From: Vogesella sp. LIG4
GTDB taxonomy: Bacteria > Pseudomonadota > Gammaproteobacteria > Burkholderiales > Chromobacteriaceae
Reading direction: 5' to 3'
Length of the DNA stretch: 64,000 bases
NCBI RefSeq assembly: GCF_900090205.1
Contig: NZ_LT607802.1
Coordinates: forward strand, 3,867,879 to 3,931,878
Part shown: in pieces, positions 1 through 61,732 of the stretch
Position numbering within the stretch: the stretch's first letter is position 1
How the letters are laid out: each line of letters begins with the position of its first letter
Notes under the pieces: generated by a model
Database searches by the model: none
The model's input: only the letters and a program-made list of their open reading frames with translations
What the model was told of the DNA's origin: nothing
Made by a program: the position numbers and the translations under genes

Positions 1-1208
1 TGATCGGCAATCAGCTTGGCGTCGTGCCACACGCCCCAGATGAAGGTGGAGCCACGGCGCGACAGCCACGGCAGGCCCACGAAGTAGACGCCCGGCTCGC
101 TGGACACGCCACGCTGGTGCTTGGGCTTGCCCTTGTCGTCGAAGGCACTCACCTGCAGCCAGCTGTAGTCCACGGCAAAGCCGGTGGCCCACACCACGCT
201 GGTGATGCCGGCCTTGGCCAGGTCGAGTTCCAGCACCGGGTTGGTGAGGCAGTCCGGGTCCGGCAGCATGCGGCGCGCTTCCGGCTCCAGCGGCAGGTCC
301 AGCCCGTTGCGCTCGATGTAGGCATCGGCCGCATCCAGCAGCTCCAGGTAGTTGGCGTCGCCGCGGGCAATGTTGGCCGCAAGGTCCGGCTGGAAGCTCA
401 CCACACCGTTCTCGAACGCCTTGGTCATGCCCACCAGGGTCATGCCCTCATGCGCCAGGCGGCGGAAATCGATGGTTTCACCGCCACGCGCGCCGCTCAC
501 GGCAATGGTGACGTGCTCGGTGCCCGGCTTCATCGCCGCAGCGTCCCACTCGCCCAGCACACCCAGCCACCAGCAGAAGTCGCGGTTGCGGTAGGCACGC
601 GGCGGGCGGTCGTGTGCGCCTACCGACAGGTATACCTTCTTGCCGGCGCGCTGCAGCTCGTCGGCGATCTGCACGCCGGAGGAGCCGGCGCCCACCACCA
701 GTACAGCGCCTTCCGGCAATTGCGCCGGGTTGCGGTACTGCGCGGAGTGGATCTGCACCAGGCCATCGTCCTTGGGCGCTACCGGCGGAATGATCGGCTT
801 CTGGAACGGGCCGGTGGCAGCCACCACGCGGCTGGCCTCGATCACCCCGGCCGAGGTTTCCACGGTAAAGCCCGGGCGGCCAACATTGCGGGTAACTTTC
901 TTCACTTCCACCCCGGTGCGAATCGGGGCGTTGAATTTCCTGGCGTAGGCTTCGAAGTAATCGGCTACCTTTTCCTTCGGGATGAAGGCATCCGGGTCGG
1001 CGCCTTCGAACTCCAGGCCGGGGAAGCGGTCGTGCCAGGCCGGGCCGTTGCACACCAGCGAATCCCAGCGCTCACTGCGCCAGCGTTCAGCGATACGATT
1101 ACGTTCCAGCACGATATGCGGCACGTCGAGCTTGCTCAGGTGTTCGCTCATGGCCACGCCGGCCTGGCCGGCGCCGATCACCAGCGTGTCTGTCTTTTCG
1201 ATTGCCAT
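1..1208 (-). CDS. Flavin-containing monooxygenase-like FAD/NAD(P) oxidoreductase (3' end cut off)
   Basis: About 402 residues are visible and the C-terminus lies beyond the left edge. The N-terminus (MAIEKTDTLVIGAGQAG) carries an FAD-binding GAGQAG motif at residues 12-17. A second dinucleotide motif, VVGAGSSG, follows mid-protein, with an ATG-like VVWATGFAVDYSW stretch near the visible end. This two-Rossmann layout is typical of class B flavoprotein monooxygenases and CzcO-type flavoproteins, which use NADPH and O2 to oxygenate small substrates in the cytoplasm. GGAGAG lies about 8 bases before the ATG. A LysR gene starts 99 bases away on the other strand, which suggests it controls this gene. 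The substrate cannot be read from the sequence. The family call is firm; the function is open. Confidence 0.85.
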   Translation of the reverse strand, partial: MAIEKTDTLVIGAGQAGVAMSEHLSKLDVPHIVLERNRIAERWRSERWDSLVCNGPAWHDRFPGLEFEGADPDAFIPKEKVADYFEAYARKFNAPIRTGVEVKKVTRNVGRPGFTVETSAGVIEASRVVAATGPFQKPIIPPVAPKDDGLVQIHSAQYRNPAQLPEGAVLVVGAGSSGVQIADELQRAGKKVYLSVGAHDRPPRAYRNRDFCWWLGVLGEWDAAAMKPGTEHVTIAVSGARGGETIDFRRLAHEGMTLVGMTKAFENGVVSFQPDLAANIARGDANYLELLDAADAYIERNGLDLPLEPEARRMLPDPDCLTNPVLELDLAKAGITSVVWATGFAVDYSWLQVSAFDDKGKPKHQRGVSSEPGVYFVGLPWLSRRGSTFIWGVWHDAKLIAD

Positions 1209-1307
1209 CTTGCTCTCTCCTGTTGAGCTGGTTGACAAGGGCCAGTCTACGGAGCGACGCTAGATACCGAAAATATATATATTGTCTACATTGGATAATT
1301 TGAAATT

Positions 1308-2213
1308 ATGCAATACACCCTGAGACAACTGGCCTACCTGGTGGCGGTGGCCGACCATGGCAGCGTTACCGCCGCGGCCAATGCGCTGTATACCTCGCAA
1401 CCCGGCGTGTCCAATGCCATTGCGCAGCTGGAAGAAGTATTCGGCCTGCAGTTCTTCGTGCGCCACCACGCCAAGGGGGTGTCGCTCACCCCGGCCGGGC
1501 AGAGCTTCATCGCCGCGGCGCGCAACCTGCTGAGCCATGCCGACGACCTGATGCAGCAGGCGCAGGAGATCAGCCAGTCGCTGCGCGGCACGGTAACGCT
1601 GGGCTGCTTCACCACCATCGCCCCCATCCTGCTGCCGCGGCTGCTGTCCACGCTACGCGAGGCCTACCCGGAGCTGGAGGTGAATTTGCTGGAGGGCGAT
1701 ACCCAGCAGCTGCAGAGCGCGCTGCTGGGCGGCCAGATCGAGCTGGCGCTGCTGTACGACCTGGGGCTGCCGGACACGCTGCACAAGCTGCCGCTGTCCG
1801 GCGCCCGCCCCTATGTGCTGGTGGCGGCCGACCACCCCCTGGCCGAGCGCGGCAGCGTGTCGCTGGCCGAGCTGGCCGATGAGCCTATGGTGCTGCTGGA
1901 TCGCCCGCACAGCCGCGAGTACTTCCTGTCGCTGTTCCGCCAGCAGGGGCTGGAGCCCAAGGTGCGGCTGCGCACCATCAACTTCGAGCTGGTGCGCGGG
2001 CTGGTGGCGGCACGCTTCGGCTATGCGCTGCTGAACCTGCGCCCCAATGTGGACGTAACCTACGATGGCAGCCGGCTGGCCTGCCTGGAGATTGCCGACG
2101 ACGTGCCCAAGCTGCCCATCATGCTGGCCTGGCCGCAGGAGCTGAAACTCACCCGCAAGGCGGAGGCGCTGCGCGATGTGTGCCTGCAGCTCCTGGGGGT
2201 GAGCGCGGGCTGA
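1308..2213 (+). CDS. LysR-family transcriptional regulator
   Basis: This is a 301-residue protein of normal LysR length. The N-terminal winged helix-turn-helix spans about residues 1-60 (YTLRQLAYLVAVADHGSVTAAA, then SQPGVSNAIAQLEE). The rest is a periplasmic-binding-protein-like effector domain. It starts 99 bases from the divergent monooxygenase gene across an AT-rich gap containing runs of TATATA, the usual arrangement for a LysR protein and its target. No clear Shine-Dalgarno sequence precedes the ATG. The effector is unknown; a role in controlling the flavoprotein is inferred from position only. Confidence 0.92.
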   Translation: MQYTLRQLAYLVAVADHGSVTAAANALYTSQPGVSNAIAQLEEVFGLQFFVRHHAKGVSLTPAGQSFIAAARNLLSHADDLMQQAQEISQSLRGTVTLGCFTTIAPILLPRLLSTLREAYPELEVNLLEGDTQQLQSALLGGQIELALLYDLGLPDTLHKLPLSGARPYVLVAADHPLAERGSVSLAELADEPMVLLDRPHSREYFLSLFRQQGLEPKVRLRTINFELVRGLVAARFGYALLNLRPNVDVTYDGSRLACLEIADDVPKLPIMLAWPQELKLTRKAEALRDVCLQLLGVSAG

Positions 2214-2279
2214 TTCTTTTGGCAATAGCGTCGGCCTTGGCTTTGCCAGGCCAGGCCGGCCAAGACCGCAGATGGCCGG

Positions 2280-2951
2280 TTAGCGGGCCTGCTCGCGGCA
2301 CAAGGCTTCACAGGGGGTGCCGTCGTGATTGGCATCCAGCCGGCTCAGGCCGCACACCTGCAGGTGATAGCGCGCTTCGGCACAGCTGCGCATCTGGCTG
2401 CAGCGCTGCTTGCTGCCACACAGCCAGTTACCGTTGGCCGCATCCGGCTGCACCTCGTTCTCAGGCGGCATGCGGCCAACCTTGTCGCCATGGCGCCAGT
2501 CCCACGGCGCCACCGGCCGGGCATCCGCCCACAGCCCGGCGCCCTCGGCCCGCGCCGCCCGTTCTGCCGCGTAGTAGCCGGCCTCGTGCGCATACTGGCG
2601 GTACACCCAGGCCCAGCCATCGCGCACCTGCTGCAGGTTGATGTCCGCGCCATCCAGCAGCACCCGCGCCACCAGCCGGCCGTACTGGTCCACATCCTGC
2701 CGCTGCAGTGTCACCTCGCGGCCGAACACCCGCGCCGCCAGCGCCGCCTTGGCACGCTGGCCGTAGGGCTGCGCCGTTTCGGGGGCATCGACCTGCCCCA
2801 GCCGCACGCGCAGCGCGCGCCGCCCGGCCAGGCATTGCAGGGTATCGCCATCCAGCACCGCCACCACCCGGCAGCCGATGTCCCGCGCCGCCGCGCTGGC
2901 CGGCAGCGCCAGCGGCCACAGGCAGAGCGCCAGCAGGCAGCGCCACCTCAT
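2280..2951 (-). CDS. Secreted thermonuclease-like (SNase) nuclease with excalibur motif
   Basis: The 223-residue protein opens with a hydrophobic signal segment (LLALCLWPLALPASAAA) and so is probably exported. A staphylococcal-nuclease fold follows: AVLDGDTL near residue 32, RVRLGQVDAPE near 49 and YGRLVARVLLDG further on match its Ca-binding and catalytic blocks. The C-terminus ends in DANHDGTPCE, the calcium-binding excalibur signature. The ATG chosen overlaps the stop codon of the upstream AraC gene (ATGA), so the two are probably co-transcribed. A much longer upstream start in the same frame would run inside the AraC gene and was rejected. The likely role is extracellular or periplasmic DNA/RNA degradation. 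Confidence 0.85.
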   Translation of the reverse strand: MRWRCLLALCLWPLALPASAAARDIGCRVVAVLDGDTLQCLAGRRALRVRLGQVDAPETAQPYGQRAKAALAARVFGREVTLQRQDVDQYGRLVARVLLDGADINLQQVRDGWAWVYRQYAHEAGYYAAERAARAEGAGLWADARPVAPWDWRHGDKVGRMPPENEVQPDAANGNWLCGSKQRCSQMRSCAEARYHLQVCGLSRLDANHDGTPCEALCREQAR

Positions 2952-3778: not shown

Positions 3779-3852
3779 GGTTTTGTCAGATTTGCATTAT
3801 ATGCCACCAAACAGACAGCCTTACACTGGCGGACACAGTTGTTTAGGAGCCG

Positions 3853-4740: not shown

Positions 4741-4750
4741 ACCCGCAAGC

Positions 4751-4790: not shown

Positions 4791-4817
4791 CATATCCGGC
4801 TCACAACAAGGCCCCGC

Positions 4818-4910: not shown

Positions 4911-5084
4911 GTCCGCCTCCTTATGTTCTTGTTGATGCCCCTTTATCGAACCCGGCTGGCCGAACTTGAGGCCGACATGGCCGTTCAGACAGGTCGCCAT
5001 GGCAGATGGTTGGCCGCATGCACTTCTGGGTGCGTGGCAGTAGCTTAGGTTGAATACAATGAACCCTACTCCCCACGTCAGAAC

Positions 5085-6032: not shown

Positions 6033-6968
6033 CTACCGCTGCAAAAACCCCGCGATGCGCTGGTAGTTGGCCGCACACACTTCCGGCAGCAGAGCCTCCA
6101 GCAGCATGAAGGCGTGGATCTGCGCCGCTTCGCAGTGGTAGTCCACCGCCACGCCGGCGGCGGCGAGTTTGCGCGCATACACTTCGCCTTCGTCCAGCAG
6201 CGGGTCGAAGCCGGCGGTGATCAGCAGCGTGGGCGGGTGGCTGGCAGTGATCTCGCCATGCAGCGGCGAGGCGGCCACGCGGTCGCCGCCCAAGCGGAAG
6301 TAATGCCCGAAGTACCAGCCGATGCGCTCCGCCTCCAGCAAATATCCCTGCCCCAGGCGCTGGATGGAGGGCTGGTTCAGCGTGTAGTCCACGCTGGGGT
6401 AGATCAGCAGCAGGCGATCGCAGGCCAGTTCAGGATCATGCTGGCCGCGCTGCGCCAGGGTGGCCGCCAGCGCCGCGCCGCCGGAATCGCCACCCAGGGT
6501 GCGCTCGCGCCGGTAGCGCACGCCGGCCGCATCCAGCACCGGCCATAGCTGGCGCAACACCAGCGCCACGTCGTCCAGCGCCGCCGGGTACGGATTTTCC
6601 GGCGCCAGCCGGTATTCCACTGCCACCACGATGTGGCCGCTGCTTGCGGCCAACCTGCGGCATACCGGGTCGTAGCTGCTGACGCTGCCGGCCATGTGGC
6701 CGCCGCCGTGGCAGTACACCAGCACCGGCCGCGCTTCGTCCGGCGCCGGGTGGTAAATGCGCAGCGGCACCGGGCAGTCGCCGCCTTCCACCATGGCCTC
6801 GTTCACCCACGGCAGCGCCGGGCCGGGTGGCAGCATGGCCCCGATCAGCGCTGCCAGCGCCTCGCGTGCGCCTATCGGTGTGTTCACCCAGCCGGCGGCC
6901 AGACGCTCGGCCTGTGCCGCGTTTACCCTGGCCAGCCAGGCGGCTACGGCGGGATGCAAATCAGCCAT
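6033..6968 (-). CDS. Alpha/beta hydrolase of the hormone-sensitive-lipase family
   Basis: The 311-residue protein shows the oxyanion-hole motif HGGG at 87-90, the nucleophile elbow GGDSGG at 159-164 (Ser162), an aspartate in TAGFDPLLDEGE and a histidine in AAQIHAFML. This complete triad is expected of bacterial HSL-type (family IV) carboxylesterases acting on short-chain esters. The start (MADLHPAV) has GGGAG 7 bases upstream and overlaps the 3' end of the MFS gene by 8 bases, so the two are translationally coupled. An upstream start would lie inside the MFS gene and was rejected. Confidence 0.88.
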   Translation of the reverse strand: MADLHPAVAAWLARVNAAQAERLAAGWVNTPIGAREALAALIGAMLPPGPALPWVNEAMVEGGDCPVPLRIYHPAPDEARPVLVYCHGGGHMAGSVSSYDPVCRRLAASSGHIVVAVEYRLAPENPYPAALDDVALVLRQLWPVLDAAGVRYRRERTLGGDSGGAALAATLAQRGQHDPELACDRLLLIYPSVDYTLNQPSIQRLGQGYLLEAERIGWYFGHYFRLGGDRVAASPLHGEITASHPPTLLITAGFDPLLDEGEVYARKLAAAGVAVDYHCEAAQIHAFMLLEALLPEVCAANYQRIAGFLQR

Positions 6969-8202
6969 ATTGTTCTCCCAGCATGCGGTCGCGCTGCGCC
7001 AGCGACGGGAACCAGCGCATCCACAGCACCACCACCAGCAGCGTGCCCACGCCGCCGGCCACCACCGCCGGCACTGTGCCCAGCCAGGCGGCGGTAACGC
7101 CGGATTCGAATTCACCCAGCTGGTTGGAAGCGCCGATGAACAGCGAATTCACCGCGTTCACCCGGCCGCGCATCTCGTCCGGCGTTTCCATCTGCACGAA
7201 GGTACTGCGGATCACCACGCTGATGATGTCGGAGGCGCCCAGCACCAGCAGCGCCAGCAGCGACAGGCCGAAGTGGCTGGACAGGCCGAAGCCGATGGTG
7301 GCGAGGCCGAACATGGCCACGGTGGCGAACATGATGCGGCCAACCTTACGCTCCACCGGGTTGCGCAGCAGCCAGGCCGACATCGCCAGCGCGCCCACCG
7401 ATGGCGCGGCGCGCAGCAGGCCCAGCCCCCACGGGCCGGTGTGCAGGATGTCGGCAGCAAACACCGGCAGCAGCGCGGTGGCGCCGCCCAGCAGCACGGC
7501 AAACAGATCCAGCGAAATGGCGCCGAAGATATCCGGCCGGCTGCGAATGAAACGCACCCCGGCCAGCAGCGAATCCAGCGTTACCCGGCGGCCATCCGCC
7601 ACATGGCGCGGCACCGGCAGGCCCAGTACCAGCAGCACGCCGGCGCCGAACATCAGCGCATCCAGCCCGTAGGTAAACGGCGCGCCAATGGCGAACAGCA
7701 GGCCGCCCAGCGCCGGCGCCACCACGGTGGCCACCTCGTTGGCCGAGGCTGCCGCCGCCACCGCGGACGGCAGCAGCGCCGGCGGCACGATGGTGGGCAG
7801 CAACGACTGCATGGTGGGCATGTCGAAGGCGCGGCAGGTGCCGATCAGCACCGAGACCGCAAAGATCAGCCCGCGCGTAACCGGCAGGCCGATGCCGGCG
7901 CTGCCCAGCAACAGCAGCAGCGCCGCCGCGGCCTGCAGCGCCATGCTGGCTGCCGCGATGTAGTGCCGCGGGTAGCGATCGGCCACGGTGCCGGTAACCA
8001 GCACCAGCAGGATGCGCGGCAGGAACTGCAGCAGGCCCACCAGGCCCAGGTCCAGCGTGCTGCCGGTGAGGCTGTAGACCTGCCAGCCCACCGCCACCCC
8101 CATGATCTGGAAGCCGCCGGTCAGCAGCAAGCGCGCCAGCCAGAAGCGCCAGAACGGCTTGCTGTGGCGCAGGGAGGTTGGTGAATCTTGGTACAGGTTC
8201 AT
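6961..8202 (-). CDS. MFS transporter (EntS-like, MFS_3 type)
   Basis: The 413-residue protein has about 12 hydrophobic segments. The middle block (LIFAVSVLIGTCRAFDMPTMQSLLPTIVPP) and the later VQMETPDEMRGRVNAVNSLFIGASNQLGEFESG block are typical of the enterobactin-exporter-like MFS_3 branch. It is probably an inner-membrane proton-driven exporter. The ATG start (MNLYQDSP) was preferred over a TTG ten codons upstream. The gene overlaps the following hydrolase by 8 bases, suggesting that the hydrolase acts on the same compound. The substrate is unknown. Confidence 0.87.
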   Translation of the reverse strand: MNLYQDSPTSLRHSKPFWRFWLARLLLTGGFQIMGVAVGWQVYSLTGSTLDLGLVGLLQFLPRILLVLVTGTVADRYPRHYIAAASMALQAAAALLLLLGSAGIGLPVTRGLIFAVSVLIGTCRAFDMPTMQSLLPTIVPPALLPSAVAAAASANEVATVVAPALGGLLFAIGAPFTYGLDALMFGAGVLLVLGLPVPRHVADGRRVTLDSLLAGVRFIRSRPDIFGAISLDLFAVLLGGATALLPVFAADILHTGPWGLGLLRAAPSVGALAMSAWLLRNPVERKVGRIMFATVAMFGLATIGFGLSSHFGLSLLALLVLGASDIISVVIRSTFVQMETPDEMRGRVNAVNSLFIGASNQLGEFESGVTAAWLGTVPAVVAGGVGTLLVVVLWMRWFPSLAQRDRMLGEQYG

Positions 8203-8411
8203 GGTGTGGCGGGAGGTGGCAGGCGGGGGCAACAGCCTACTCCCGATTGCTGCGCCGCGCCATAGTTGGCCGCAGCACAGACTGTTCCACCGGCGGCCCC
8301 TGCTCCCCTGCTGCCGGACAGCTTGCCCGCCGCCGTGTGAGCGCTATCATGCACAGTCTGTACCGCCGCCAACGCTGGCGGCCCCACCTCCCGCCTGCAA
8401 GGACGCAATCG

Positions 8412-9464
8412 ATGGAATTCCGACCACTTGGCCGCACCGGCATCAACGTCAGCCTGATCTCGCTGGGCACCATGACCTGGGGCGAACAGAACAGCGAAGC
8501 CGACGCCCACAGCCAGCTGGATCTCGCGCTGGAGCGCGGCATCAATCTGATCGACACCGCAGAAATGTACCCGGTGCCGCCCAAGGCCGAAACCCAGGGC
8601 CGCACCGAAAGCTATATCGGCAGCTGGCTGGCCAAGGGCGGCCGCCGCGAACGCATCGTGCTGGCCACCAAGGCGGCCGGGCCGAGCAGCGACCCCAAGC
8701 GCCCCAGCCACATCCGCGGCGGCCAGGTGCACTTTGACCGCGCCAACCTCACCCAGGCGCTGCACGACAGCCTGCGCCGCCTGCAGACCGACCATGTAGA
8801 CCTGTACCAGCTGCACTGGCCGGATCGCAGCACCAACTACTTCGGCCAGCTGGGCTACCCGTGGCAGGAGGATGCGCCGGGCAGCGTGGCCATCGAGGAA
8901 ACCCTGCGCGTGCTGCAGGACTTCGTGGCCGCCGGCAAGGTGCGCGCCATTGGTCTTTCCAATGAAACGCCGTGGGGCGTGGCGCAGTTCCTGGCGCTGG
9001 CCGAACGCTACAACCTGCCGCGCGTGGCCAGCATCCAGAACCCGTACAGCCTGCTCAACCGCAGTTTCGAAGTGGGCCTGGCCGAATTCAGCCACCGCGA
9101 GCAGCTGGGCCTGCTGGCCTACTCGCCGCTGGCGTTTGGCGTGCTGTCCGGCAAATACCTGGGCGGCGCCCGCCCGGACGGCGCGCGGCTGACGCTGTTC
9201 GACCGCTTCACCCGCTACACCAACCCGCAGGCGGAGGCCGCCACCGCGCGCTACGTGGCACTGGCGCGCGAACGCGGCCTGTCGCCGGCGCAGCTGGCAC
9301 TGGCCTATGTGAACAGCCGGCCCTTCGTCACCAGCAACATCATCGGCGCCACCACGCTGGCACAGCTGGAGGAAAACATCGGCAGCGCCGGTGTAACGCT
9401 GGATGCCGCCACCCTGGCGGCCATCGAAGCCATCCACCAGGCCCAGCCCAACCCGGCGCCGTAA
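8412..9464 (+). CDS. tas: Aldo/keto reductase, Tas type
   Basis: The 350-residue protein matches E. coli Tas over its whole length. Shared blocks include LGTMTWGEQNSEADAHSQLD, INLIDTAEMYPVPPKAETQG, QNPYSLLNRSFEVGLAEFS and FDRFTRYTNPQ. The AKR tetrad is present (Asp and Tyr in DTAEMY, Lys in VLATKAAG, His in YQLHWPDR), so it should be an active NADPH-dependent cytoplasmic oxidoreductase. AAGGA stands 8 bases before the ATG; an upstream in-frame start overlaps the promoter region and was rejected. Its physiological substrate is not known for the family. Confidence 0.93.
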   Translation: MEFRPLGRTGINVSLISLGTMTWGEQNSEADAHSQLDLALERGINLIDTAEMYPVPPKAETQGRTESYIGSWLAKGGRRERIVLATKAAGPSSDPKRPSHIRGGQVHFDRANLTQALHDSLRRLQTDHVDLYQLHWPDRSTNYFGQLGYPWQEDAPGSVAIEETLRVLQDFVAAGKVRAIGLSNETPWGVAQFLALAERYNLPRVASIQNPYSLLNRSFEVGLAEFSHREQLGLLAYSPLAFGVLSGKYLGGARPDGARLTLFDRFTRYTNPQAEAATARYVALARERGLSPAQLALAYVNSRPFVTSNIIGATTLAQLEENIGSAGVTLDAATLAAIEAIHQAQPNPAP

Positions 9465-9861
9465 GCCGGCACGGCACCGCCGGATAGCGCAAGGTTGGCC
9501 GCACGCAGAACGTGCGGCCAACCTTTGGTATATGGCACGTTACCTCGCCGCCATGCGGGGCATTCTGCTGCGGCAAGCCCCGTTCAAGCCGGGGGCTGGT
9601 CGGCAATCAGGGCCTGGGCGTGGCCATATGGACTGCCCCTGCTCCTGTAGGCCGCCCTGACCTAGGAAAAATGACAATGGCGGTCTGTAAACAGATCCGG
9701 CCATATTTCTTTGAAGAGCTCACCGACCGCTTAGGCCGACGACCTGCCGGAGTCCTCACCTGATCGGCTGCAGGTCGGCCAAAGCAGACGACCGAGCGAC
9801 CGATGAAAAATGGCCGCCTTCCTATTGAAAGCGGCCACAATAAACTAGAGGCGGTTCATAT
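9465..9861. other. Gene-free region after tas
   Basis: About 400 bases hold no convincing gene. The first 60 bases contain an inverted pair of the TTGGCCGCA repeat, likely the tas terminator. The remainder has a more even base composition and runs into the 3' end of the SDR gene; nothing else was recognised. Confidence 0.6.
9491..9526. terminator. Inverted pair of the GTTGGCCGCA repeat acting as a hairpin
   Basis: AAGGTTGGCCGCACG and its complement CGTGCGGCCAACCTT are separated by a few bases just behind tas. The stem is strong and is followed by TTGG rather than a full T-run. It consists of two oppositely oriented copies of the repeat found throughout the window. Confidence 0.7.
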
Positions 9862-11016: not shown

Positions 11017-11805
11017 TCAGTCAAAATCCAGCACCACCGCCGCATGCTTGTTGCTTACCGCGATGTAATGCCGGGTCTGCAGCGAGAGTTCCTGATTCGA
11101 CGTCAGCATCCCGAATGCGCTGTGCAACGCCAGCCGGCGATATTGCTCCACCACCCGGCCGCCGGATGCCAGCCGCTCCCGTGCCTGCAGCAGGTCGGCA
11201 TACTCGTGTTCGGGTAACTGCAGCAGCGCGCCCGAATCGCCCAGCATCTTCTGCACATAGGCCTCGGCGTTCGGGCCATGCGCACAGCAGACGTCGCCCT
11301 GCGGCATGCGGCCAACTGGCGAGTAAGCCAGCACGCTCACAATCCGGCTGCGGGCACTGGCTAATGTTTCCCGCAGCAAGACGGCAGAAGACAAAGGCTT
11401 GTCTTCCACCAGCAGCCGCGTTATCCCGCGGTCGTTGATCGCTTCCAGTATCTGCTCCGCATCGTCATCGACGATGACTTCCTTATGCGGCGGCCACACA
11501 TCCAGTTGCGCGTGGCTCCCCTGGCAGTTGCCGACATGGAAAATGAAATAGTCCGGGTAGATTCTGAGCTTGTCCGGCTCATTCCCCAGCTGCAGCCGAT
11601 GCGCATCGTAAAACCTGGTGGTAGCCGCCATCAGCAGGGAACTCACCCCCATGGCACCACATGGCCGGTTCACCACCACGCCAATACGATCGGACGTTTG
11701 AAACCCCGGAAGCACATCGTCCAGGCTGGCCTGCCGGCCTTGCAGCTGAAAATCAAAATCGCGGGCAGAAATTACATTGGTGGCATGCAAGGCAAGCTCC
11801 TTCAT
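11017..11805 (-). CDS. Uncharacterised 262-residue protein
   Basis: I do not recognise this protein. It looks soluble: there is no signal peptide or membrane segment. Features that stand out are VVVNRPCGAMGVSSLLMAATTRFYDAH near residue 45, IYPDYFIFHVGNCQGSHAQLDVWPPHKEV with a Cys-Gln-Gly-Ser-His pattern, and CCAHGPNAEAYVQKMLGD with paired cysteines. The 199-base gap to the divergent cupin gene probably holds both promoters, and the two may form a functional pair. No Shine-Dalgarno sequence is obvious at the ATG. Codon use matches the chromosome, so it is probably a real gene. Confidence 0.7.
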   Translation of the reverse strand: MKELALHATNVISARDFDFQLQGRQASLDDVLPGFQTSDRIGVVVNRPCGAMGVSSLLMAATTRFYDAHRLQLGNEPDKLRIYPDYFIFHVGNCQGSHAQLDVWPPHKEVIVDDDAEQILEAINDRGITRLLVEDKPLSSAVLLRETLASARSRIVSVLAYSPVGRMPQGDVCCAHGPNAEAYVQKMLGDSGALLQLPEHEYADLLQARERLASGGRVVEQYRRLALHSAFGMLTSNQELSLQTRHYIAVSNKHAAVVLDFD

Positions 11806-12348: not shown

Positions 12349-12819
12349 GTTTTCAGCGCGCCATGCTGGGCGCCATCCTGGGCACCCAGCAGGCTCCGCA
12401 CCAGCCGGAGCCTCACGGGCTTGCCCACTGTCTGTGCCCCCTCTCGCCTGCCTCGCGCTGCATCTCCAGCAGCCAGTAGCTCTCCCGCCGCCACACCCTG
12501 CCCTATAAACCCCATATCCGCCTGCAGCCAGCTGAATTGCCTGGCACACCCCCAATTAAATAGCCCGCATCAGCCTCGCCAAAATCCGCATTACCTCGCA
12601 TTACATAAAGTAATGCCAAAGTGAAAATAAAGCGCATTGACGCTTTTTTCCTCCTCGCCAAATATTTCATTACCAAAAGCGCATTGCCGTTTGCTGCCCG
12701 AAACGCTGATTTTCCAGTGAATCAGCTAGTTGGCCGCATCGCATCCGGCATATATCAACAGCGAAATAACAGGCCGCCACGGTATTCATTCAATCAAGGC
12801 AATAGAGGAGTCCGCAGCA
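12349..12819. other. Regulatory region upstream of gbcA
   Basis: Some 470 bases have no gene. The second half is AT-richer and contains several CATTAC/GTAATG modules (around 12588-12614) and the box CATTACCAAAAG at 12668-12679. A single TTGGCCGCA repeat follows at 12730. This is probably where a betaine-responsive activator and RNA polymerase bind. Confidence 0.55.
12588..12679 (+). promoter_or_regulatory. Candidate betaine-regulon operator upstream of gbcA
   Basis: The stretch contains CATTAC-N4-CATTAC, then GTAATGCCAAAG and finally CATTACCAAAAG, all on the sense strand of gbcA. The last box ends about 140 bases before the gbcA start. The identical box, or a one-mismatch version, lies upstream of the GbdR-like gene and of proV in the same gene-relative orientation. 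Binding by the GlxA/AraC regulator is an inference. Confidence 0.45.
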
Positions 12820-15171: not shown

Positions 15172-15475
15172 TTTCCGCAGCGCGGCGCCACGGCCAGCCA
15201 TGCGGCCAACCCTGGCGGCATGCCTGACAGTGGCAGGCCGGCCGCCAATAGCCGGGCCGATGGCGGCCATTCATGCCAGCTTGCACATCACCATGATGTG
15301 TCATTTTTTTGGCAGCCATGCATCACCGTGGCCGGGAAACCCGTGGCATTACTTGCGCAAAAAACCCAAGCTCAACAGCATAAGTTGTGCAAAATCAAGA
15401 TTTTCCGGGTTAAAATTTAAAGCAAAAGCGAAGTGATGTATCTTTCAATTCACCACCCCACCTGATAGCAACACC
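15172..15475. other. Gene-free region between gbcB and the small membrane-protein gene
   Basis: The first part contains a TTGGCCGCA repeat (15201) and GC-rich short repeats. The last 130 bases are AT-rich and probably hold the promoter of the following gene. No gene or structured RNA was recognised. Confidence 0.45.
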
Positions 15476-19965: not shown

Positions 19966-19967
19966 CC

Positions 19968-29862: not shown

Positions 29863-29910
29863 ATGCGGCCAACCATTCCTGTTCATTCACCCAAATCGAT
29901 AGCAGCCATT

Positions 29911-40230: not shown

Positions 40231-40270
40231 TGCAGGGTTGGCCGCAAGCTGCGCATGCGGCCAACCCTGC
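40231..40270. repeat. Inverted pair of the GTTGGCCGCA repeat
   Basis: GCAGGGTTGGCCGCA and TGCGGCCAACCCTGC face each other with a 9-base centre, forming a 15-base stem in the intergenic region. It stands next to a separate classical terminator. Confidence 0.75.
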
Positions 40271-41118: not shown

Positions 41119-41202
41119 TGTTTCTCCTCTCACGGCCATTGCCTGGCTCGATAGTTGCGGCCAAGGGCAGCGGGCTTGCCGCCATCGGCCATGCCCGCGT
41201 CT

Positions 41203-43457: not shown

Positions 43458-43483
43458 CTTGCGGCCAACGTTGGCCGCAAGCA
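43458..43483. repeat. Palindromic head-to-head pair of the GTTGGCCGCA repeat
   Basis: GCTTGCGGCCAAC is directly followed by GTTGGCCGCAAGC, a perfect 26-base palindrome built from two copies of the window-wide repeat. It lies 15 bases behind the LysR stop. Confidence 0.85.
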
Positions 43484-47197: not shown

Positions 47198-48679
47198 TCA
47201 GTGCTGATACCAGCCCAGCACGCCCGGCTGCAGGTTGATGTTCACCTGCTTCACCTGCTGGTACTCCTGCAGGCCGTTCACCCCCAGGTCGCGGCCATAG
47301 CCGCTCATCTTGTAGCCACCCCACGGTGCCTCATTAAAGGTGGGGTTGTAGCAGTTCACCCAGGTCACCCCGGCGCGAATCTCGCGGATCACGCGCAGCG
47401 CCCGTGCGCCATCGCTGGTGAACACACCGCCGGCCAGGCCGTACGGTGTGTCGTTGGCCATGGCGATGGCTTCGGCTTCGGTGCGGAAGGTCTGCACCGC
47501 CACCACCGGGCCAAACACCTCCTCGCGCACCAGGTCCATGTCGCGGCGGCAGTTGTCGAACACGGTTGGCCGCACGAAGTAGCCCCTGGCGCACTCGCCC
47601 TCGGTGTAGCGCTCGCCGCCGCACACCAACCGCGCACCCTGCTGCTTCGCTCGTTCGATATGCGCCAGGATCTTGTCCATCTGCCCTTGCGACACGATGG
47701 CGCCCATGTCCGGGTCGTCCAGGCCGTTGCCGATGGTCATGGCGTTGGCGCGCTCGGCCAGGCGGGCGACGAAGGCATCCTTGATGCTCTCTTCGATCAG
47801 GATGCGCGAGCCGGCGGAGCACACCTCGCCCTGGTTGAAGAACACGCCGATCATTGCCCATTCCACCGCGCCTTCCAGGTCGGCATCGGCAAAGATGATG
47901 TTGGGTGACTTGCCGCCCAGCTCCAGCCCCACCTTCTTGAGGTTGCCCACCGCCGCGCTGGCGATCAGCTGGCCGGTACGGGTGCTACCGGTGAAGGTCA
48001 CCATGTCCACGTCGTGGCTCTCCGCCAGCAGCTGGCCGGCGGCCGGCCCGGTGCCCAGCACCAGGTTGGCGGTACCGGCAGGCAGGCCGGCCGCATGCAG
48101 GATCTCGAACAGCACCACGGCCGACAGCGGTGTCAGCTCGCTGGGCTTGAACACCACGCAGTTGCCAGCCGCCAGCGCCGGCGCCAGCTTCCAGGTGGCC
48201 ATCAGCAGCGGGTAGTTCCACGGCGTGATCAGCCCGCACACGCCTATCGGCTCGTGCATGCTGTAGGCGTGCATCGGGCCGAAGGCATCGCTGACCTCGT
48301 ACACCCCGCCCTGCGGCACGCTGATCAGCCCGGCGTAGTAGCGGAAGCAGGCGGCGGCATCGTCCACGTCGCCGCGCGCCTCGCGCAGCGGCTTGCCGTT
48401 GTCCAGGCAATCCAGCCGCGCCAGTTCGTCGGCGCGCGCCTTGATGCCATCGGCCACGCGGTGCAGCAGCTCCGCCCGCCGCGGTGCGGCCATGCGCCGC
48501 CATTCACCCTTGCCGTAGAACGCCGCGTGGGCGGCGGCAATCGCCTGGCGGGTATCTTCCGCCGTGCTGTCGGCCACGCGGGCGATCACCTCGCCGTTGG
48601 CCGGGTTGATCACGTCGCGGCTGGCACCGCCCAGCGCCAGCTGCCATTCACCGTTGATGTAGTTTTTGCGGATTTCCAT
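47198..48679 (-). CDS. Aldehyde dehydrogenase (betaine-aldehyde/amino-aldehyde type)
   Basis: The 493-residue enzyme has PWNYPLLMATWKLAPALAAGN, VTFTGSTRTGQL, LELGGKSPNIIFADAD with the conserved glutamate and the catalytic cysteine in NQGEVCSAGSR. The sequence style is that of GbsA/BetB and other omega-amino-aldehyde dehydrogenases. It is the last gene of a cluster containing a cupin, an FAD amine oxidoreductase, an amidase and a PotF-like receptor, so an aldehyde released from an amine is the likely substrate. Betaine aldehyde is possible, but no choline dehydrogenase gene adjoins. GGAGGAG precedes the start. Confidence 0.9.
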   Translation of the reverse strand: MEIRKNYINGEWQLALGGASRDVINPANGEVIARVADSTAEDTRQAIAAAHAAFYGKGEWRRMAAPRRAELLHRVADGIKARADELARLDCLDNGKPLREARGDVDDAAACFRYYAGLISVPQGGVYEVSDAFGPMHAYSMHEPIGVCGLITPWNYPLLMATWKLAPALAAGNCVVFKPSELTPLSAVVLFEILHAAGLPAGTANLVLGTGPAAGQLLAESHDVDMVTFTGSTRTGQLIASAAVGNLKKVGLELGGKSPNIIFADADLEGAVEWAMIGVFFNQGEVCSAGSRILIEESIKDAFVARLAERANAMTIGNGLDDPDMGAIVSQGQMDKILAHIERAKQQGARLVCGGERYTEGECARGYFVRPTVFDNCRRDMDLVREEVFGPVVAVQTFRTEAEAIAMANDTPYGLAGGVFTSDGARALRVIREIRAGVTWVNCYNPTFNEAPWGGYKMSGYGRDLGVNGLQEYQQVKQVNINLQPGVLGWYQH

Positions 48680-49144: not shown

Positions 49145-50545
49145 TCAGGAGTCAAAGCCCAAACCCAGGGCATCCATGGTCCGCAACATCAGATTGCGCT
49201 TGCCGTGGTTGTGGTCGGCGCGGTTCAGCGACCAGCGCGTGGCCTGCACCGCGACATAGGTCAGCGGCTCCGGCGGGAACGGCATCGGCATCTCGCGCAC
49301 CATGCGCAAACGGGTGCGCTCGGTATCCAGCCCGGCCAGCTTGTCCAGCAGCACGTTGGCCGCAAAGCGGGTGGCGCCTACCCCCAGGCCGGTAAAGCCG
49401 GCGGCGTAGGCCACCTTGCCGCCATGCGCCTGCGCATAGAAAGCACAGAAGCGGGTGGAGGTATCGATGGCGCCGGCCCAGCGGTGGGTAAAGCGCAGCC
49501 CTTCCAGTTGCGGGAAGGTGGTAAAGAAATGGCTGGCCAGCAGCTCGAAGCTGGCCGCTCGCTCCTCGTACTGCTCCTCGATGCGGCCGCCGAAGTTGTA
49601 GATGGCATCGTAGCCGCCGAACAGGATGCGGTTGTCGCGGCTCAGCCGGTAGTAATGGAACTGGTTGCCCATGTCGGCAAGGCCCTGGCGGTTGCGCCAG
49701 CCCACTGCGGCCAACTGCGCCGGGCTCAGCGGCTCGCTCATCAGCACGTAGTCGTATACCGGGATGGTGTGCCATCGATAGCGGCGCAGCAGCGAGGGAA
49801 AGGCATTGGTCGCCAAAATCACCTGCTGCGCGACCACCCGCCCGCCGGCGGTGTGCAACGCCACCTGCCTGCCCGACGAACGCAGCCGCTCCACCCGCGA
49901 CTGCTCGTGGATTTCCACCCCCAGCTCGCGGGCAACACGGGTCAGCCCTGCGGCCAACTTGCCCGGGTGCAGCATGGCGGTGCCGTCGCGGTCCCAGTGC
50001 CCGGCAAGGAAGGTGGGCGATGCCACCTCGGCACGCACCTCGTCGGCGGACAGGCAGCCTTCATCCTGCAGCAGCTCGGCCTGGTACGGTTCCACCGCCA
50101 CCACCATCACCCCGCTGCGCTCGAAATCGCAGTCGATGCCGTAGCGCTGCAGCGTGGCCTCGATCTCGTCCAGGTTTTGACGCCCCAGCGCCTCCAGCTG
50201 CTCGAATTCCTCCGGCCAGCGGCTCATGCCGTTTTCCTCGCCGTGGGTGATGCTGGCCTCGCAGAAGCCGCCGTTGCGGCTGGAGGCGGCCCCGCCGCAC
50301 TGCCCGGCTTCCAGCAGCAGCACGCGGCGCTGCGGCTCGCGCTCCTTGGCCAGAATGGCCGCCCACAAGCCCAGGTAGCCGCCGCCGACAATGGCCAGCT
50401 CGGTAGTCACCTCGCCCTGCAGCGGCGCAAAGCCGGCACGGCTCGGCACGTCGTCCAGCCAGAAGGAGCGGTTGATGGAGCCGGCCAGGGCCGACTGGAT
50501 GACGCTCTTTTGCGGGGCGTGCCGCTCGAAAACGGTTTGAAGCAT
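49145..50545 (-). CDS. FAD-dependent amine oxidoreductase (DAO fold)
   Basis: The 466-residue flavoprotein has the motif IVGGGYLGLWAAILAKE (GxGxxG at 54-59) and GGAASSRNGGFCEASITHGEENG, similar to PuuB-type amine oxidoreductases. A C-terminal GFTGLGVGATRFAANVL segment completes the FAD site. It is about 25% identical in feel to the other DAO protein of the window (starting at 33988) but not a recent copy. It probably oxidises an amine to an aldehyde, which the neighbouring dehydrogenase then oxidises. CAGGAA lies upstream of the start. Confidence 0.85.
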   Translation of the reverse strand: MLQTVFERHAPQKSVIQSALAGSINRSFWLDDVPSRAGFAPLQGEVTTELAIVGGGYLGLWAAILAKEREPQRRVLLLEAGQCGGAASSRNGGFCEASITHGEENGMSRWPEEFEQLEALGRQNLDEIEATLQRYGIDCDFERSGVMVVAVEPYQAELLQDEGCLSADEVRAEVASPTFLAGHWDRDGTAMLHPGKLAAGLTRVARELGVEIHEQSRVERLRSSGRQVALHTAGGRVVAQQVILATNAFPSLLRRYRWHTIPVYDYVLMSEPLSPAQLAAVGWRNRQGLADMGNQFHYYRLSRDNRILFGGYDAIYNFGGRIEEQYEERAASFELLASHFFTTFPQLEGLRFTHRWAGAIDTSTRFCAFYAQAHGGKVAYAAGFTGLGVGATRFAANVLLDKLAGLDTERTRLRMVREMPMPFPPEPLTYVAVQATRWSLNRADHNHGKRNLMLRTMDALGLGFDS

Positions 50546-50627
50546 GGGGCGGTGGATTCCTGTAACGCATGAAGCTCGAAAAACCGCCGGCCAGGCGAAC
50601 GCCGGGCCAGCGGTGTTGGTGCCTTCC

Positions 50628-52058: not shown

Positions 52059-52074
52059 TTCAGTATTCCGGAAG

Positions 52075-53463
52075 TTAAAAACTGTAGACCGCCTGGGCGC
52101 TCAGCACATCGTTATGCTTGCTGGTGGTGCCGTCGGCGCGTTCGAAGCTGCGTACGCTGGAGATGTCATGCCGCGCTTCCAGCTTCAGTTGCAGCTGGTC
52201 GGTCGGGTAGAACAGCAGCGCGGCGGTAATGTCCTGACGCACCGCGCCCTTGCAGCCGCTCGGGTCCAGCGCATAGCAGGCCGGGTCCACGCCGAAGCCG
52301 TTGATCGGGTCGTTGCCGTTGGCACTCAGGCCGATGCTGGGGTTGCCGCCACCGTTCTTGCTGTTGTTCAGGTAGTCGTAGCGCACGGTCCAGCCCATGC
52401 GCCCCAGTGCGGCGGTCTCGAACTTGTGGTGCTTCAGCAGCGAGAAACCCCACCACTGCGCGCGGCCGCCGTTGAGCGCGCTGTACTCGGCACTGCCGTA
52501 GTCGAACTGCGCGGCGCTGATGTCGTCGAGCTGGGTGTTGCTGATGTCCACCTCGGTGTAGGCCACGCGGCCGAAGTTCGGCGTGCTGCCGGTGTAGTTG
52601 CCGCTGGTGCCGCGCGCCAGATAGCCATACCAGCCGATGTCGATGTTGTTGGTGAGCATGTTGTCCACGCGCCAGCTCAGCGACGGGGTACGGTTGGCCG
52701 CATTGTTCACCTGCGACGCCTGGCTGCGCCCGGCCTCGTTGCCCAGCATGGCCTTCACGCTCCAGGCACCCTGCACCCAGGACGCGCCGGCACCCACGAT
52801 ATTGCTGGGCTCGCTGAAGTCGTACAGCAGGTTGTGGGTGATGTTCACCGTCTGGTTGCTGGCGGCGTACTCGTAGCCGGCCCAGGACGGAATATCGCCG
52901 GCAAACACCTGCCAGTGCTCATCCAGCGGCACTACCGCCTGCGCCGAGTTGAGGATGCTCATATTGCCGTTGCCATTGCTGTCCAGCGAGGAATACACCC
53001 CGGCGCCACGGTCCGGCATGATGGTGATATCCACGTACGGCGCCAGCGGGCCGCTGCCGAAGGTTTTCTTGATGTCCAGGTAGACATCGCCCAGGTTGGA
53101 GGTGTCGTAGTTGTAGCTCTGGCTGCGGTTGGCAAACACGAACGACGCCGACTTGCGCCCCAGGTTGCTGCTGTACAGCGGGTCGATGTAGCCGCTGATG
53201 CTCAGGCCGGCAATCGGGCCGTTCTGCGCATCCTCGGACAGCTTGTCCACCTTCATCGCCGTGGCGCTCACCTGCTGCGTCAGCGCCTCGTCACTGTCCT
53301 GCCGTGCGGTGACCGACTGTTGCAACGCGGTTTTCAGGCTGTCGATCTCACGCTGCATCGCCTCCAGCCGCTGCTGCATCTCCTGCATGCCCGGCTGGGC
53401 CTCTGCGGCCAACGTCAGCAGCGGTGCCGCCCCGATCAGGCCGGCCAAAAGTGTTTTCTTCAT
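52075..53463 (-). CDS. Outer-membrane porin-like protein (DUF3138-like)
   Basis: The 462-residue protein has a signal peptide (KKTLLAGLIGAAPLLTLAAEA), then a coiled-coil-like segment of about 45 residues (MQEMQQRLEAMQREIDSLKTALQQ). A long beta-rich region follows, ending in aromatic VYSF, the usual last strand of outer-membrane barrels. The sequence style agrees with the DUF3138 family found mainly in betaproteobacteria. It lies directly downstream of a PotF-like receptor gene (9-base gap), so it may be the outer-membrane entry for the same substrate. GGGGAAATC precedes the ATG. Confidence 0.75.
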   Translation of the reverse strand: MKKTLLAGLIGAAPLLTLAAEAQPGMQEMQQRLEAMQREIDSLKTALQQSVTARQDSDEALTQQVSATAMKVDKLSEDAQNGPIAGLSISGYIDPLYSSNLGRKSASFVFANRSQSYNYDTSNLGDVYLDIKKTFGSGPLAPYVDITIMPDRGAGVYSSLDSNGNGNMSILNSAQAVVPLDEHWQVFAGDIPSWAGYEYAASNQTVNITHNLLYDFSEPSNIVGAGASWVQGAWSVKAMLGNEAGRSQASQVNNAANRTPSLSWRVDNMLTNNIDIGWYGYLARGTSGNYTGSTPNFGRVAYTEVDISNTQLDDISAAQFDYGSAEYSALNGGRAQWWGFSLLKHHKFETAALGRMGWTVRYDYLNNSKNGGGNPSIGLSANGNDPINGFGVDPACYALDPSGCKGAVRQDITAALLFYPTDQLQLKLEARHDISSVRSFERADGTTSKHNDVLSAQAVYSF

Positions 53464-53471
53464 GATTTCCC

Positions 53472-55895: not shown

Positions 55896-55940
55896 AAAAA
55901 GGTTGGCCGCAAGCTGTACGGGCTTGCGGCCAACCTTTTT
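55896..55940. terminator. Bidirectional terminator built from two GTTGGCCGCA repeats
   Basis: AAAAA, then GGTTGGCCGCAAGC, a 7-base loop, GCTTGCGGCCAACC and TTTTT. It is a textbook rho-independent terminator in which both stem arms are copies of the window-wide repeat, like uptake-sequence terminators in Neisseria. Confidence 0.93.
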
Positions 55941-57428: not shown

Positions 57429-60400
57429 TCAGTCTCCAATGCTCATCAGACTCGCATTACCGCCAGCAGCCGTGGTATTCACGCTAATGGCGCGTTCCAC
57501 TACCAGTCGGTGCAGGTTGTAACCACCCTGCTCGACCAGCAACAGCGGAATCAGGGCGCCGTCGCGGCGGGCCAGCGTCTGGCGCAGCTGCTCGGCATCC
57601 GGGCCGGCATACAGCACGGCGGTCACATCGGCAGCTTCCACCTTGTCGGCCAGCTGCACTGCGCTCTTGAGCTGTGCGGCCAACTGCTGGGCAGCGGCGT
57701 TGTCCTGCAGCAGCACGCGGTTGCCGGTGGCAAAGGCGGCAGCCACCTGCATCACCAGCGCTTCCAGGTTGTCGGCCCAGCAGGCCACCAGGCCGCGTGG
57801 TGCAAACAGCAGGGTGTTCAGTTCGCCAGTGGGGCCCGGCAGGTTGGCCGCATGGTTCAGCGGCGAGTGGCGGCGTGCCGCGGCAATCACTTCCTGCAGA
57901 TGCTTGCGCGCACCGTCATCCAGCTTCAGCTTGGGCAGTGCGGCCTGCAACTGATCCAGCGCGCTGAAATCCACCGCATCCGGGCTGGCATCCAGCTTGG
58001 CGTCCCAGCTGCCGCCGGTCAGGCGGTACAGGTAGAGCGGGCCACCGGCTTTCGGGCCGGTACCGGACTTGCCTTCGCCACCGAACGGCTGCACACCCAC
58101 CACCGCGCCAACGATGTTGCGGTTCACGTAGACGTTGCCCACCTTGACGTTGCTGGTGATGGCATCGATGGTTTCGTCGATGCGGCTGTGAATGCCGTGG
58201 GTCAGGCCGTAGCCGGTACTGTTGATCTCGGCCACCACCTGGTCGATCTGGCTGGCTTCAAAGCGGATCACGTGCAGTACCGGGCCGAATACCTCGCGCT
58301 CCAGCAGGCGGATGCTGTCGATCTCGAACAGGGTCGGCGCCACGTAGGTACCGCCGGCGCACTCTTCGCTCAGCGTGGCCTGGTACATGCTGCGGGCGCG
58401 GCCCTTCAGGCCGTCGATATGGCGCAGCAGGTTGCCCTGCGCTTCGGCGTCGATCACCGGGCCGATGTCGGTATCGAAACGCGCCGGGTTGCCCACACGC
58501 ATCTCGTCCATGGCGCCCTTGATCATGGTCACCACCTTGTCGGCGATGTCGTTCTGCAGGTACAGCACGCGCAGTGCCGAGCAACGCTGGCCGGCGGAAT
58601 CGAAAGCGGACGACAGTACGTCGGTCACCACCTGCTCCGGCAGCGCCGAGCTGTCCACGATCATGGCGTTCTGGCCACCGGTTTCGGCGATCAGCGGTAC
58701 TTCTTCGCCACGGCCGGACAGCGCGCGGTTGATGATCTGCGCCACTTCGGTGGAGCCGGTGAAGATCACGCCCTTGATGCGCGCATCGGTAGTCAGCGCG
58801 GCGCCGACCACTTCGCCGCGGCCCGGCAGGAACTGCAGCACGTCGCGCGGTACGCCGGCTTCGTGCAGCAGGCGGATGGCGTAGCCGGCGATCAGCGCGG
58901 TCTGCTCGGCCGGCTTGGCCAGCACCACGTTACCGGCGGCCAGCGAGGCGGTTACCTCGCCGATGAAGATGGCCAGCGGGAAGTTCCACGGGCTGATACA
59001 TACCACCGGGCCCAGCGCCGGGTTGCGCTGGTTGTCGAATTCGGCACGCACGTGGGCGGCGTAGTAGCGGCAGAAGTCCACCGCTTCGCGCACTTCGGCG
59101 ATGGCGTTGTTCAGGGTCTTGCCGGCTTCGCGCACCGCCAGGCCCATCAGGGTCGGCATGTGCTCTTCCATCAGGTCGGCCATGCGGTCCAGGCACTGCG
59201 CACGCTTGGCCGGCTCGGTAGCGGCCCACAGCGGTGCGGCGCGCACGGCGGCCTGCAGCGCCACTTCCACGTCCTCGCGGCTGGCTTCCTGCACCTGGCC
59301 GACGATGTCGGCCAGGTTGGCCGGGTTGCGCACCGGCTGCGGGCTGTCCACTGCCACGTCACGCTCGGCCAGCAGCGGCACGGCCTGCCACTGCTGCGTT
59401 TCGGAAGCCTGCAGTGATTTTTCCAGCGACTGCAGCACGTGCTCGTTGGCCAGATCCACACCCTTGGAGTTCTTGCGTTCGCTACCGTACAGCGCTACCG
59501 GCAGCGCGATCTTGCTGTGCGGCAGGCCGCCATGGCGGTCCGCCTCGGCCACCGGATCTTCCACCAGTTCCTCGATCGACACGCTCTCGTCCACGATGCG
59601 GTTCACGAACGAGGAGTTGGCGCCGTTTTCCAGCAGGCGGCGTACCAGGTAGGCCAGCAGGGTTTCGTGCGACCCCACCGGCGCGTAGATGCGGCACGGC
59701 TTGTCCAGCTTGTCCTTGCCCACCACCTGGTCGTACAGGGTCTCGCCCATGCCGTGCAGGCACTGGAATTCGTAGTCCTTGCCCTCGGCCAGGTGGTAGA
59801 CCGCGGCCAGGGTGTAGGCGTTATGCGAGGCAAACTGCGGGTAGATGGCGTCCTGTGCGGCCAACAGGCGCTTGGCGCAGGCGATGTAGGACACGTCGGT
59901 GTATACCTTGCGGGTGTACACCGGGTAGCCCGGCAGGCCATCCACCTGGGCGCGCTTGATCTCGGCATCCCAGTAGGCGCCCTTCACCAGGCGCACCATG
60001 AAGCGGTGCTTGCTGCGGCGCGCCAGGTCGATCAGGTAATCGATCACGTACGGGCAGCGCTTCTGGTAAGCCTGCACCACGATGCCGATACCTTCGAAAC
60101 CGTCCAGGTCCGGGTCGTTGGCCAGTGCTTCCACCAGGTCCATGGAGATTTCCAGGCGGTCGGCTTCCTCGGCATCGATATTCAGGCCGATGTTGTACTG
60201 CTTGGCCAGCATGAACAGCTGCTTCAGGCGCGGCAGCAGCTCGCTCATCATGCGCTCGTGCTTCATGCGGGCGTAGCGCGGGTGAATGGCGGACAGCTTC
60301 ACCGAAATGCCCGGGCCACTGTAGATACCGCGGCCGTTGGATTCCTTGCCAATGGCGTGGATGGCAACCACGTAGTCATTCAGGTAACGCTGTGCGTCAG

Positions 60401-61055: not shown

Positions 61056-61563
61056 TGTTCCAACAGCTCGATCTGACTATTGTATACAAAATATAAACTA
61101 CGTACAGCCAAATCAGAGGACAATCCAGAATAGAAGCCAGCGAAGCAAGCGCAAGGAAGGAAATTGCAACAGTAGGCTATCGATAACCGGCAAAACATGA
61201 CATTTGCACGGCAAACGGCAAGCTGCAATGCAACTGCCCCACTACCTGCATCGCACCAGCAACACACTGCAAGCGGTAATGTCGCCAGGCCGACACAAGG
61301 CCGCTGTTTTATTACATGGCCATTTATTCAATAACCATGCGGTATTGACGATTTCGGCTTATTGAGAAATATTTTCCCGCCGTAATGGCTTGCAGGCGGT
61401 ACCGCATTAATCCATAACGGCAATAAGTGGACCCGGAATCAATATTGCAACGGCAAATTCAGCAGCAACAGCATAAACAGCCAGCACGTAAACACATGGT
61501 TGAAACAAAGCGGCGAGCGGGACAACTGCCGGCATTGCAGGGAATATCGGCAGAAACGGTGAA

Positions 61564-61657
61564 TGTGACACAGGGGAGCCGTGGGGGCGGCTTGTCACAC
61601 ACCATGCCCCGGCTTCACGCAAAGTAAATCCCGGCTCGATCGGGCCGGGATTTACTT
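61564..61657. repeat. Two consecutive hairpins in the putA-rRNA gap
   Basis: TGTGACA with AGCCG pairs with CGGCT and TGTCACA (61564-61599), followed by the perfect AAGTAAATCCCGGC hairpin (61622-61657). Two stable stems in a row resemble a small RNA with terminator or backup rRNA terminators. No T-run follows on either strand. Confidence 0.5.
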
Positions 61658-61712
61658 AATCCGGTAAACAGTTTTACAGGCGAATTGAATAGTAAATCGT
61701 GCAGAAATCGCC

Positions 61713-61732
61713 TGCGGCCAACGTTGGCCGCA
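61713..61732. repeat. Palindromic pair of the GTTGGCCGCA repeat downstream of the rRNA operon
   Basis: TGCGGCCAAC is directly followed by GTTGGCCGCA, the same head-to-head arrangement as at 43458-43483. It lies about 70 bases beyond the rRNA terminator. Confidence 0.85.

Follow-up and report, generated by a model that had tools for sequence, protein, structure and literature searches.

The word in a 64-kb window of Vogesella sp. LIG4

The stretch analyzed here, called the window throughout, is 64,000 nucleotides of Vogesella sp. LIG4 (contig NZ_LT607802.1, positions 3,867,879 to 3,931,878), and the element in question is a short, highly repeated word, a candidate DNA uptake sequence (DUS). 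Exact search of both strands for the 9-mer TTGGCCGCA gave 44 copies, 19 on the + strand and 25 on the − strand. An earlier note on the window had listed 42; all 42 starts were correct and two + copies, at 2434 and 8428, had been missed, for which reason its strand split of 17 versus 25 was right for the − strand and gave 17 instead of 19 for the other. Copies outside inverted pairs lie on the + strand at 373..381, 2434..2442, 5010..5018, 6067..6075, 8266..8274, 8428..8436, 12730..12738, 24431..24439, 25976..25984, 34787..34795, 47566..47574, 49356..49364, 52694..52702 and 57844..57852, and on the − strand at 2471..2479, 6645..6653, 7335..7343, 11307..11315, 15201..15209, 16226..16234, 18560..18568, 21991..21999, 23083..23091, 28436..28444, 29269..29277, 29864..29872, 31353..31361, 39514..39522, 41156..41164, 49706..49714, 49949..49957, 53404..53412, 57675..57683 and 59856..59864.

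Copies in opposite orientation form five pairs that fold into hairpins (−18.4 to −36.1 kcal/mol), with a run of A or T after some of them. These are 9495..9503 (+) with 9513..9521 (−), −29.5 kcal/mol; 40238..40246 (+) with 40256..40264 (−), −31.1 kcal/mol; 43460..43468 (−) with 43471..43479 (+), −22.8 kcal/mol; 55903..55911 (+) with 55925..55933 (−), −36.1 kcal/mol; and 61713..61721 (−) with 61724..61732 (+), −18.4 kcal/mol. The last pair lies just beyond a 5S ribosomal RNA gene, which together with part of a 23S ribosomal RNA gene occupies 61847-64000 on the − strand.

In 100 dinucleotide shuffles of the window the 9-mer occurred 2.1 times on average and at most 6 times, so it is about 21-fold enriched. 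For the 10-mer GTTGGCCGCA, found 40 times where an order-2 Markov model predicts 0.64 copies, the enrichment is about 62-fold. Enrichment is thus real, as the earlier note had held, and its figure of 40-50 fold is too high for the 9-mer. The form GGTTGGCCGCA accounts for 21 of the 44 copies.

Form, orientation and context in the whole genome

The genome is a single contig of 4,147,242 bases and carries 3,018 copies of the 9-mer (1,535 + 1,483 on the two strands), against 49 (22 + 27) of the reversed word used as control, far above chance. Form and context were examined in 464 kb, consisting of the window and twenty 20-kb stretches. In this sample the 9-mer occurs 328 times and the 10-mer 310 times, and each single-base variant of the 10-mer only 0-15 times; with its single-mismatch neighbors nearly absent, the word is all-or-none in this genome and is best written as the 10-mer (A)AGGTTGGCCGCA. 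Upstream of the leading G, the bases A, A and G are favored in 179, 169 and 176 of the 328 copies, giving the full form AAGGTTGGCCGCA. The 3′ end is strict, CA following in 328 of 451 occurrences of TTGGCCG.

Predicted genes hold 215 of the 328 copies, in all six frames, and 113 lie outside; density is 0.57 per kb within predicted genes and 1.28 per kb outside, both values being rough because the gene finder assigned just 81% of bases to coding sequence. The occurrence in both orientations, in several frames and inside as well as between genes was thereby confirmed. If codon usage or one recurrent peptide motif produced the word, a preferred frame would fit, and sense frame 0 (Leu-Ala-Ala) is indeed the commonest, with 79 of 215; the use of all six frames, the higher density outside genes and the rarity of the reversed word leave this explanation scarcely credible, and copies outside genes and in every frame contradict it.

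The sample contains 25 pairs of copies in opposite orientation and at most 45 bp apart. These pairs, with the five in the window that fold, are what a transcription terminator or a repetitive extragenic palindromic (REP)-like hairpin repeat would show, but the majority of the 328 copies stand alone, and predicted genes contain 215 of them, so that we consider such a repeat extremely unlikely. Neisseria DUS occur in both orientations and in terminator pairs and also supply terminator arms, so the word pairs fit a DUS as well.

Genome-wide, orientation is balanced (1,535/1,483, binomial p = 0.35), and it is independent of GC skew (62 + and 57 − copies in stretches of negative skew, 83 + and 82 − in those of positive skew; Fisher p = 0.81). 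Abundant, sharp words of similar length also serve in chromosome organization, repair or DNA binding, and the word contains the palindrome GGCC, as the site of a methylase or another DNA-binding protein might. Against a Chi-, KOPS (FtsK-orienting polar sequence)- or matS-like signal or such a site stand the lack of orientation bias, overall or by GC skew, and a prophage-like stretch without the word; nor would genus dialects beside a ComP receptor and a likeness to DUS in register, both given below, be expected of it. We regard this explanation as very unlikely.

Density along the genome is uneven. The three emptiest of the twenty stretches were L150, L151 and L136, and genes were scanned in the latter two. 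Positions 11974-20000 of L136, which look like a prophage or integrative element, encode a phage integrase and a recombination directionality factor resembling Gp3, and the last 9.1 kb of this stretch are without the word (Poisson probability 0.001).

Conservation of sites between species

A DNA search with window positions 49145-53499 found clear partners in only 7 of the 12 other Vogesella genomes, over about one third of the query; conservation was therefore measured on a region common to five other Vogesella. The reference was a 120-kb region of Vogesella G057 with 68 sites, aligned to four relatives and to the LIG4 genome, each comparison being limited to the aligned part and the background being 10-mers 20-60 bp from a site. 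Exact sites were kept more often than background in all five comparisons: 49/56 versus 225/448 (Fisher p = 3e-8), 43/52 versus 121/412 (p = 1e-13), 29/31 versus 118/247 (p = 3e-7), 11/15 versus 40/120 (p = 0.004) and, for the most distant genome, LIG4 itself with 9 sites, 4/9 versus 9/72 (p = 0.03). Composition-matched words containing GGCC were kept about as often as background. The conservation between related genomes that the earlier note had named as a check was thus found.

Distribution in the genus and sister dialects in the family

Sixty-one genomes of the family Chromobacteriaceae were counted, 13 of Vogesella and 48 others. The 10-mer occurs at 1,871-2,895 copies in all 13 Vogesella genomes and at 8-58 copies in all 48 others. 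NCBI taxonomy places the family in the order Neisseriales, and the order sampled here is wider, covering 158 genera; in 386 genomes from the rest of it GTTGGCCGM reached at most 426 copies (in a 7-Mb genome with 276 copies of the reversed control), whereas six Vogesella genomes in that sample have 2,358-3,584.

Words were then counted without a prior hypothesis in 20-kb stretches of other genera. A sister word, GTTGGCCGAG, was present in G034 at 105 copies in 140 kb against 3.4 expected (order-4 Markov), and another, GTTGGCCGAA, in G037 at 47 copies in 100 kb against 1.1; the latter was found likewise in G038, G045, G010, G046 and G048. In two genomes of another family, serving as positive controls, the same procedure recovered words already known from Neisseria: AGGCCGTCTGAA, 71 times in 60 kb, and ATGCCGTCTGAA, 37 times in 60 kb. 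Whole-genome counts of GTTGGCCGAR were 2,017 in G034, 1,668 in G035, 744 in G036, 2,223 in G037, 1,258 in G038, 1,872 in G045, 1,152 in G046, 238 in G047 (84% complete), 942 in G048 and 1,386 in G010. Sister words at 238-2,223 copies are therefore carried by 10 of the 48 non-Vogesella genomes, spread over six genera, and the remaining 38 have 26-154. G036 and G037 belong to the same genus, and their threefold difference, 744 against 2,223, would fit ongoing loss or gain of the word.

In some genomes the following base is preferred as well: among occurrences of TTGGCCG with the respective ending, GTTGGCCGAAG makes up 11/11 in G010, 9/10 in G046, 10/15 in G048 and 24/37 in G038, and GTTGGCCGAGC makes up 31/51 in G034. 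Genus dialects thus vary at the 3′ end, with CA in Vogesella, AG in one genus and AA in several. Within Vogesella, G050, G056, G057, G059 and G060 (stretches L213-L232) have CG, CC and CT besides CA after TTGGCCG, a sub-dialect inside the genus. The earlier note had proposed a dialect of another Neisseriales family; the family is Chromobacteriaceae, and it holds a set of dialects rather than one odd word.

The candidate receptor ComP

In LIG4 comP lies outside the window, at about 1,559,083 of contig C1 (1420-1839 of stretch L011), and a ComP ortholog with an open frame is present in all 13 Vogesella genomes. The search for comP that the earlier note had called for was thus positive; ComEC was also found in the LIG4 genome, although it is a common gene that occurs in 10 of 14 control genomes too. 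A scan of named genomes with the ComP of this genus gave ten loci: seven in Vogesella species (V. oryzae, V. aquatica, V. urethralis, V. alkaliphila, V. indigofera, V. margarita and V. fluminis), one in ‘Beta proteobacterium L13’ and two in Neisseriaceae bacteria assembled from metagenomes. The ComP sequences at these loci are identical to those of 10 of the 13 genomes, which identifies the genus as Vogesella.

A profile of the globular domain (A2) compared with solved chains matched only ComP (2nba, 2m3k, 5hz7; E 4.2e-10 to 6.3e-9, cut-off E 0.001). ComP also provided the first three Foldseek matches and the first match of VIA-align, and the fold, a long helix and a five-stranded sheet, resembles that of solved ComP. 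Like Neisseria ComP, the Vogesella protein has a prepilin start, the conserved segment around YK.T...WP.LP and a C-terminal cysteine pair; unlike it, it has 138-144 amino acids and one conserved cysteine pair instead of two, with 19-24% identity on the structural alignment. Two rows of the alignment have four cysteines, the additional two lying in the N-terminal helix, and of the ComP rows from the other family, 5 of 6 have four cysteines. With the Pfam family ComP_DUS (cut-off 27.3 bits), 11 of the 13 Vogesella proteins scored above the cut-off and the V. oryzae type scored 18.4-18.6. Directly before comP lies a short second prepilin, FimT/GspH-like by eye (866-1420 of L011 in LIG4, 872-1420 of L068 in the V. 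oryzae type), which might be part of the uptake pilus.

Across the 61 family genomes, the A2 profile matched every one of the 13 Vogesella (E no higher than 6.3e-46), every one of the 10 genomes that carry a sister word (E no higher than 1.1e-13) and 25 of the 38 word-less genomes (E no lower than 1.2e-13). Outside Vogesella, E-values separated word-bearing from word-less genomes fully (Mann-Whitney p = 6e-7, with genomes lacking a match entered as E = 1, relatedness ignored and a Vogesella-built profile), and the word-less G044 nearly tied with the word-bearing genomes. The ComP-like gene of G044 (L118) has a WPPLP segment but not the preceding K.T; the best match in G045 is without the WP segment.

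The word could also be a relic of DUS-driven uptake that shaped the genomes, with present strains taking up no DNA or having no preference for the word. One genus, g2, keeps ComP homologs in word-less genomes, as would be seen after loss. However, among genomes 80-94% identical the copies are conserved better than the DNA that flanks them, the many one-off variants that decay would give are nearly absent from the LIG4 genome, and ComP is an open frame in every Vogesella genome; we consider a relic improbable.

Relation to Neisseria DUS and other uptake systems

Chromobacteriaceae words and Neisseriaceae DUS are alike as 10-12-mers in high copy number, with dialects per species group and ComP as receptor, a candidate one in Chromobacteriaceae; the words found here differ in their 3′ end, which is CA, AA or AG, and in their hosts, which are Chromobacteriaceae. 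The AA form, AGGTTGGCCGAA, agrees with AG-mucDUS AGGTCGTCTGAA at 9 of 12 positions and with AG-DUS at 8 of 12, both in register at zero shift on the same strand. When four of the eight dialects were compared, 0.56% of 20,000 shuffles reached 9/12 in any register (P = 0.0056), and the Vogesella and AG forms, at 8/12 each, gave P = 0.054 and P = 0.041. The sister form speaks against the statement in the earlier note that the word is unrelated to Neisseria DUS, although the Vogesella form itself reaches only 8/12. The Vogesella dialect is probably homologous to Neisseria DUS, and, as judged from sequence, homology of the words likely runs through the AA form and the common receptor rather than through the letters of the Vogesella form.

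Neisseriaceae DUS comprise eight dialects, with 943 to 5,918 copies in the genomes of section 6 of the published survey (Frye et al., 2013; PMC3630211). The core is CTG in all eight dialects described there, whereas the core of Vogesella and its sister dialects, at positions 6-8 of the 10-mer, is CCG. The uptake signal sequences (USS) of Pasteurellaceae work on a similar principle, in that a short and abundant word directs the uptake of related DNA, with another word in another lineage. A different receptor has been proposed for them (PMC12616744).

No earlier report of a DUS in Vogesella or Chromobacteriaceae was found in the open-access literature, though one may exist elsewhere. As far as that literature shows, three features are new: DUS dialects outside Neisseriaceae, their CCG core in place of the CTG called essential, and a single conserved cysteine pair in ComP where two are known.

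A probable DNA uptake sequence of Vogesella

Taken together, copy number, balanced orientation, conservation of sites, restriction to the genus with sister dialects around it, and ComP in 13 of 13 genomes support the reading of the earlier note, and GTTGGCCGCA, or (A)AGGTTGGCCGCA, very probably serves the genus Vogesella as its DNA uptake sequence, binding and uptake being what these sequence data lead us to infer. The minor pilin ComP, in a type IV pilus, would bind double-stranded DNA with the word; the pilus would pull such DNA in, ComEC would pass one strand inside, and recombination into the chromosome would spread and maintain the copies. They would be spread and maintained because DNA bearing the word is taken up more often.

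Several observations weigh against an uptake sequence read by this ComP. The Foldseek E-values are only 1.8e-3 to 1.2e-2, and the LIG4 ComP scores 23.8-24.0 bits with ComP_DUS, under the cut-off, which two other pilins of the same genome exceed (L009, 72.6 bits; L010, 53.8 bits), so the identity of the receptor is inferred. Only C126 and C135 are invariant among the 12 rows of the ComP alignment, one pair and not two. ComP homologs occur in genera without a dominant word, and ComP alone therefore does not predict the word. The CTG core reported as required in Neisseria is CCG here, the five Vogesella relatives read tolerate other bases in place of the last A, and a search of the open-access literature yielded nothing on competence in Vogesella. 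Finally, positions 1122-11959 of L151 form a 10.8-kb gap without the word (Poisson probability 0.0004), in which all six genes scanned belong to Pfam families of regulators or enzymes and none is mobile, so that gaps are not only mobile DNA.

The two higher-scoring pilins, which were the first candidates, are probably not the receptor: L009 lies beside a GspH-like frame and L010 among FimU/PilV-like frames, neither has the YK.T...WP.LP segment, and each is probably another minor pilin. The single match of the globular ComP profile in this genome is elsewhere. Word gaps as a mark of foreign DNA were only partly upheld, L136 being phage-like and L151 ordinary; G+C in the L151 gap is 0.592 against an average of 0.634, and recent arrival of this DNA is possible.

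In the literature examined, DUS are known only from Neisseriaceae, where transformation requires the CTG core. A second clan in a neighboring family would offer natural receptor-word pairs (CA, AG and AA ends; CCG versus CTG) for studying how ComP reads DNA. The word and its matching pilus protein look like a self-recognition tag for uptake of DNA of the same kind; the word would be a ready tag for transforming Vogesella and could help in spotting foreign DNA in genomes of its family.

Possible origin and loss of the word

A ComP tree was built from 36 of 41 intended rows (the pattern missed L119, L087, L094, L098 and L101, and G045 was omitted because of the missing WP segment); few g3 and g8 genomes are among the sequences read, branches are long and deep joins unsure. 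Vogesella forms one group (100/100), and seven word-less g2 genomes cluster with G010, which bears the word (98/96), a placement that loss of the word in g2 would produce. We lean toward an origin of DUS-guided transformation before Neisseriaceae, with ComP and a word already in the ancestor that Neisseriaceae and Chromobacteriaceae share. Two clans would then have arisen, one with a CTG core and two disulphides in ComP, the other with a CCG core and one disulphide, and the word would have been lost in some Chromobacteriaceae that keep a relative of ComP. Under such two-clan co-evolution the CTG core would be a lineage trait and not a mechanistic necessity. With a second clan, the origin and loss of uptake specificity could be traced on a tree.

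Word-less genera showed no other dominant word where 140-160 kb was counted (a single genome from each of g2, g3 and g8), nor, a local repeat aside, where 60 kb of another g8 genome and 40 kb of a g4 genome were. The survey of Frye et al. (PMC3630211) reported that Laribacter, Lutiella, Pseudogulbenkiania and Chromobacterium have no obvious DUS, which would agree with the word-less genera here; it does not name Vogesella among those genomes. One word-less genome, G033, carries a local array of repeated CCCTACTCC units (L181-L182).

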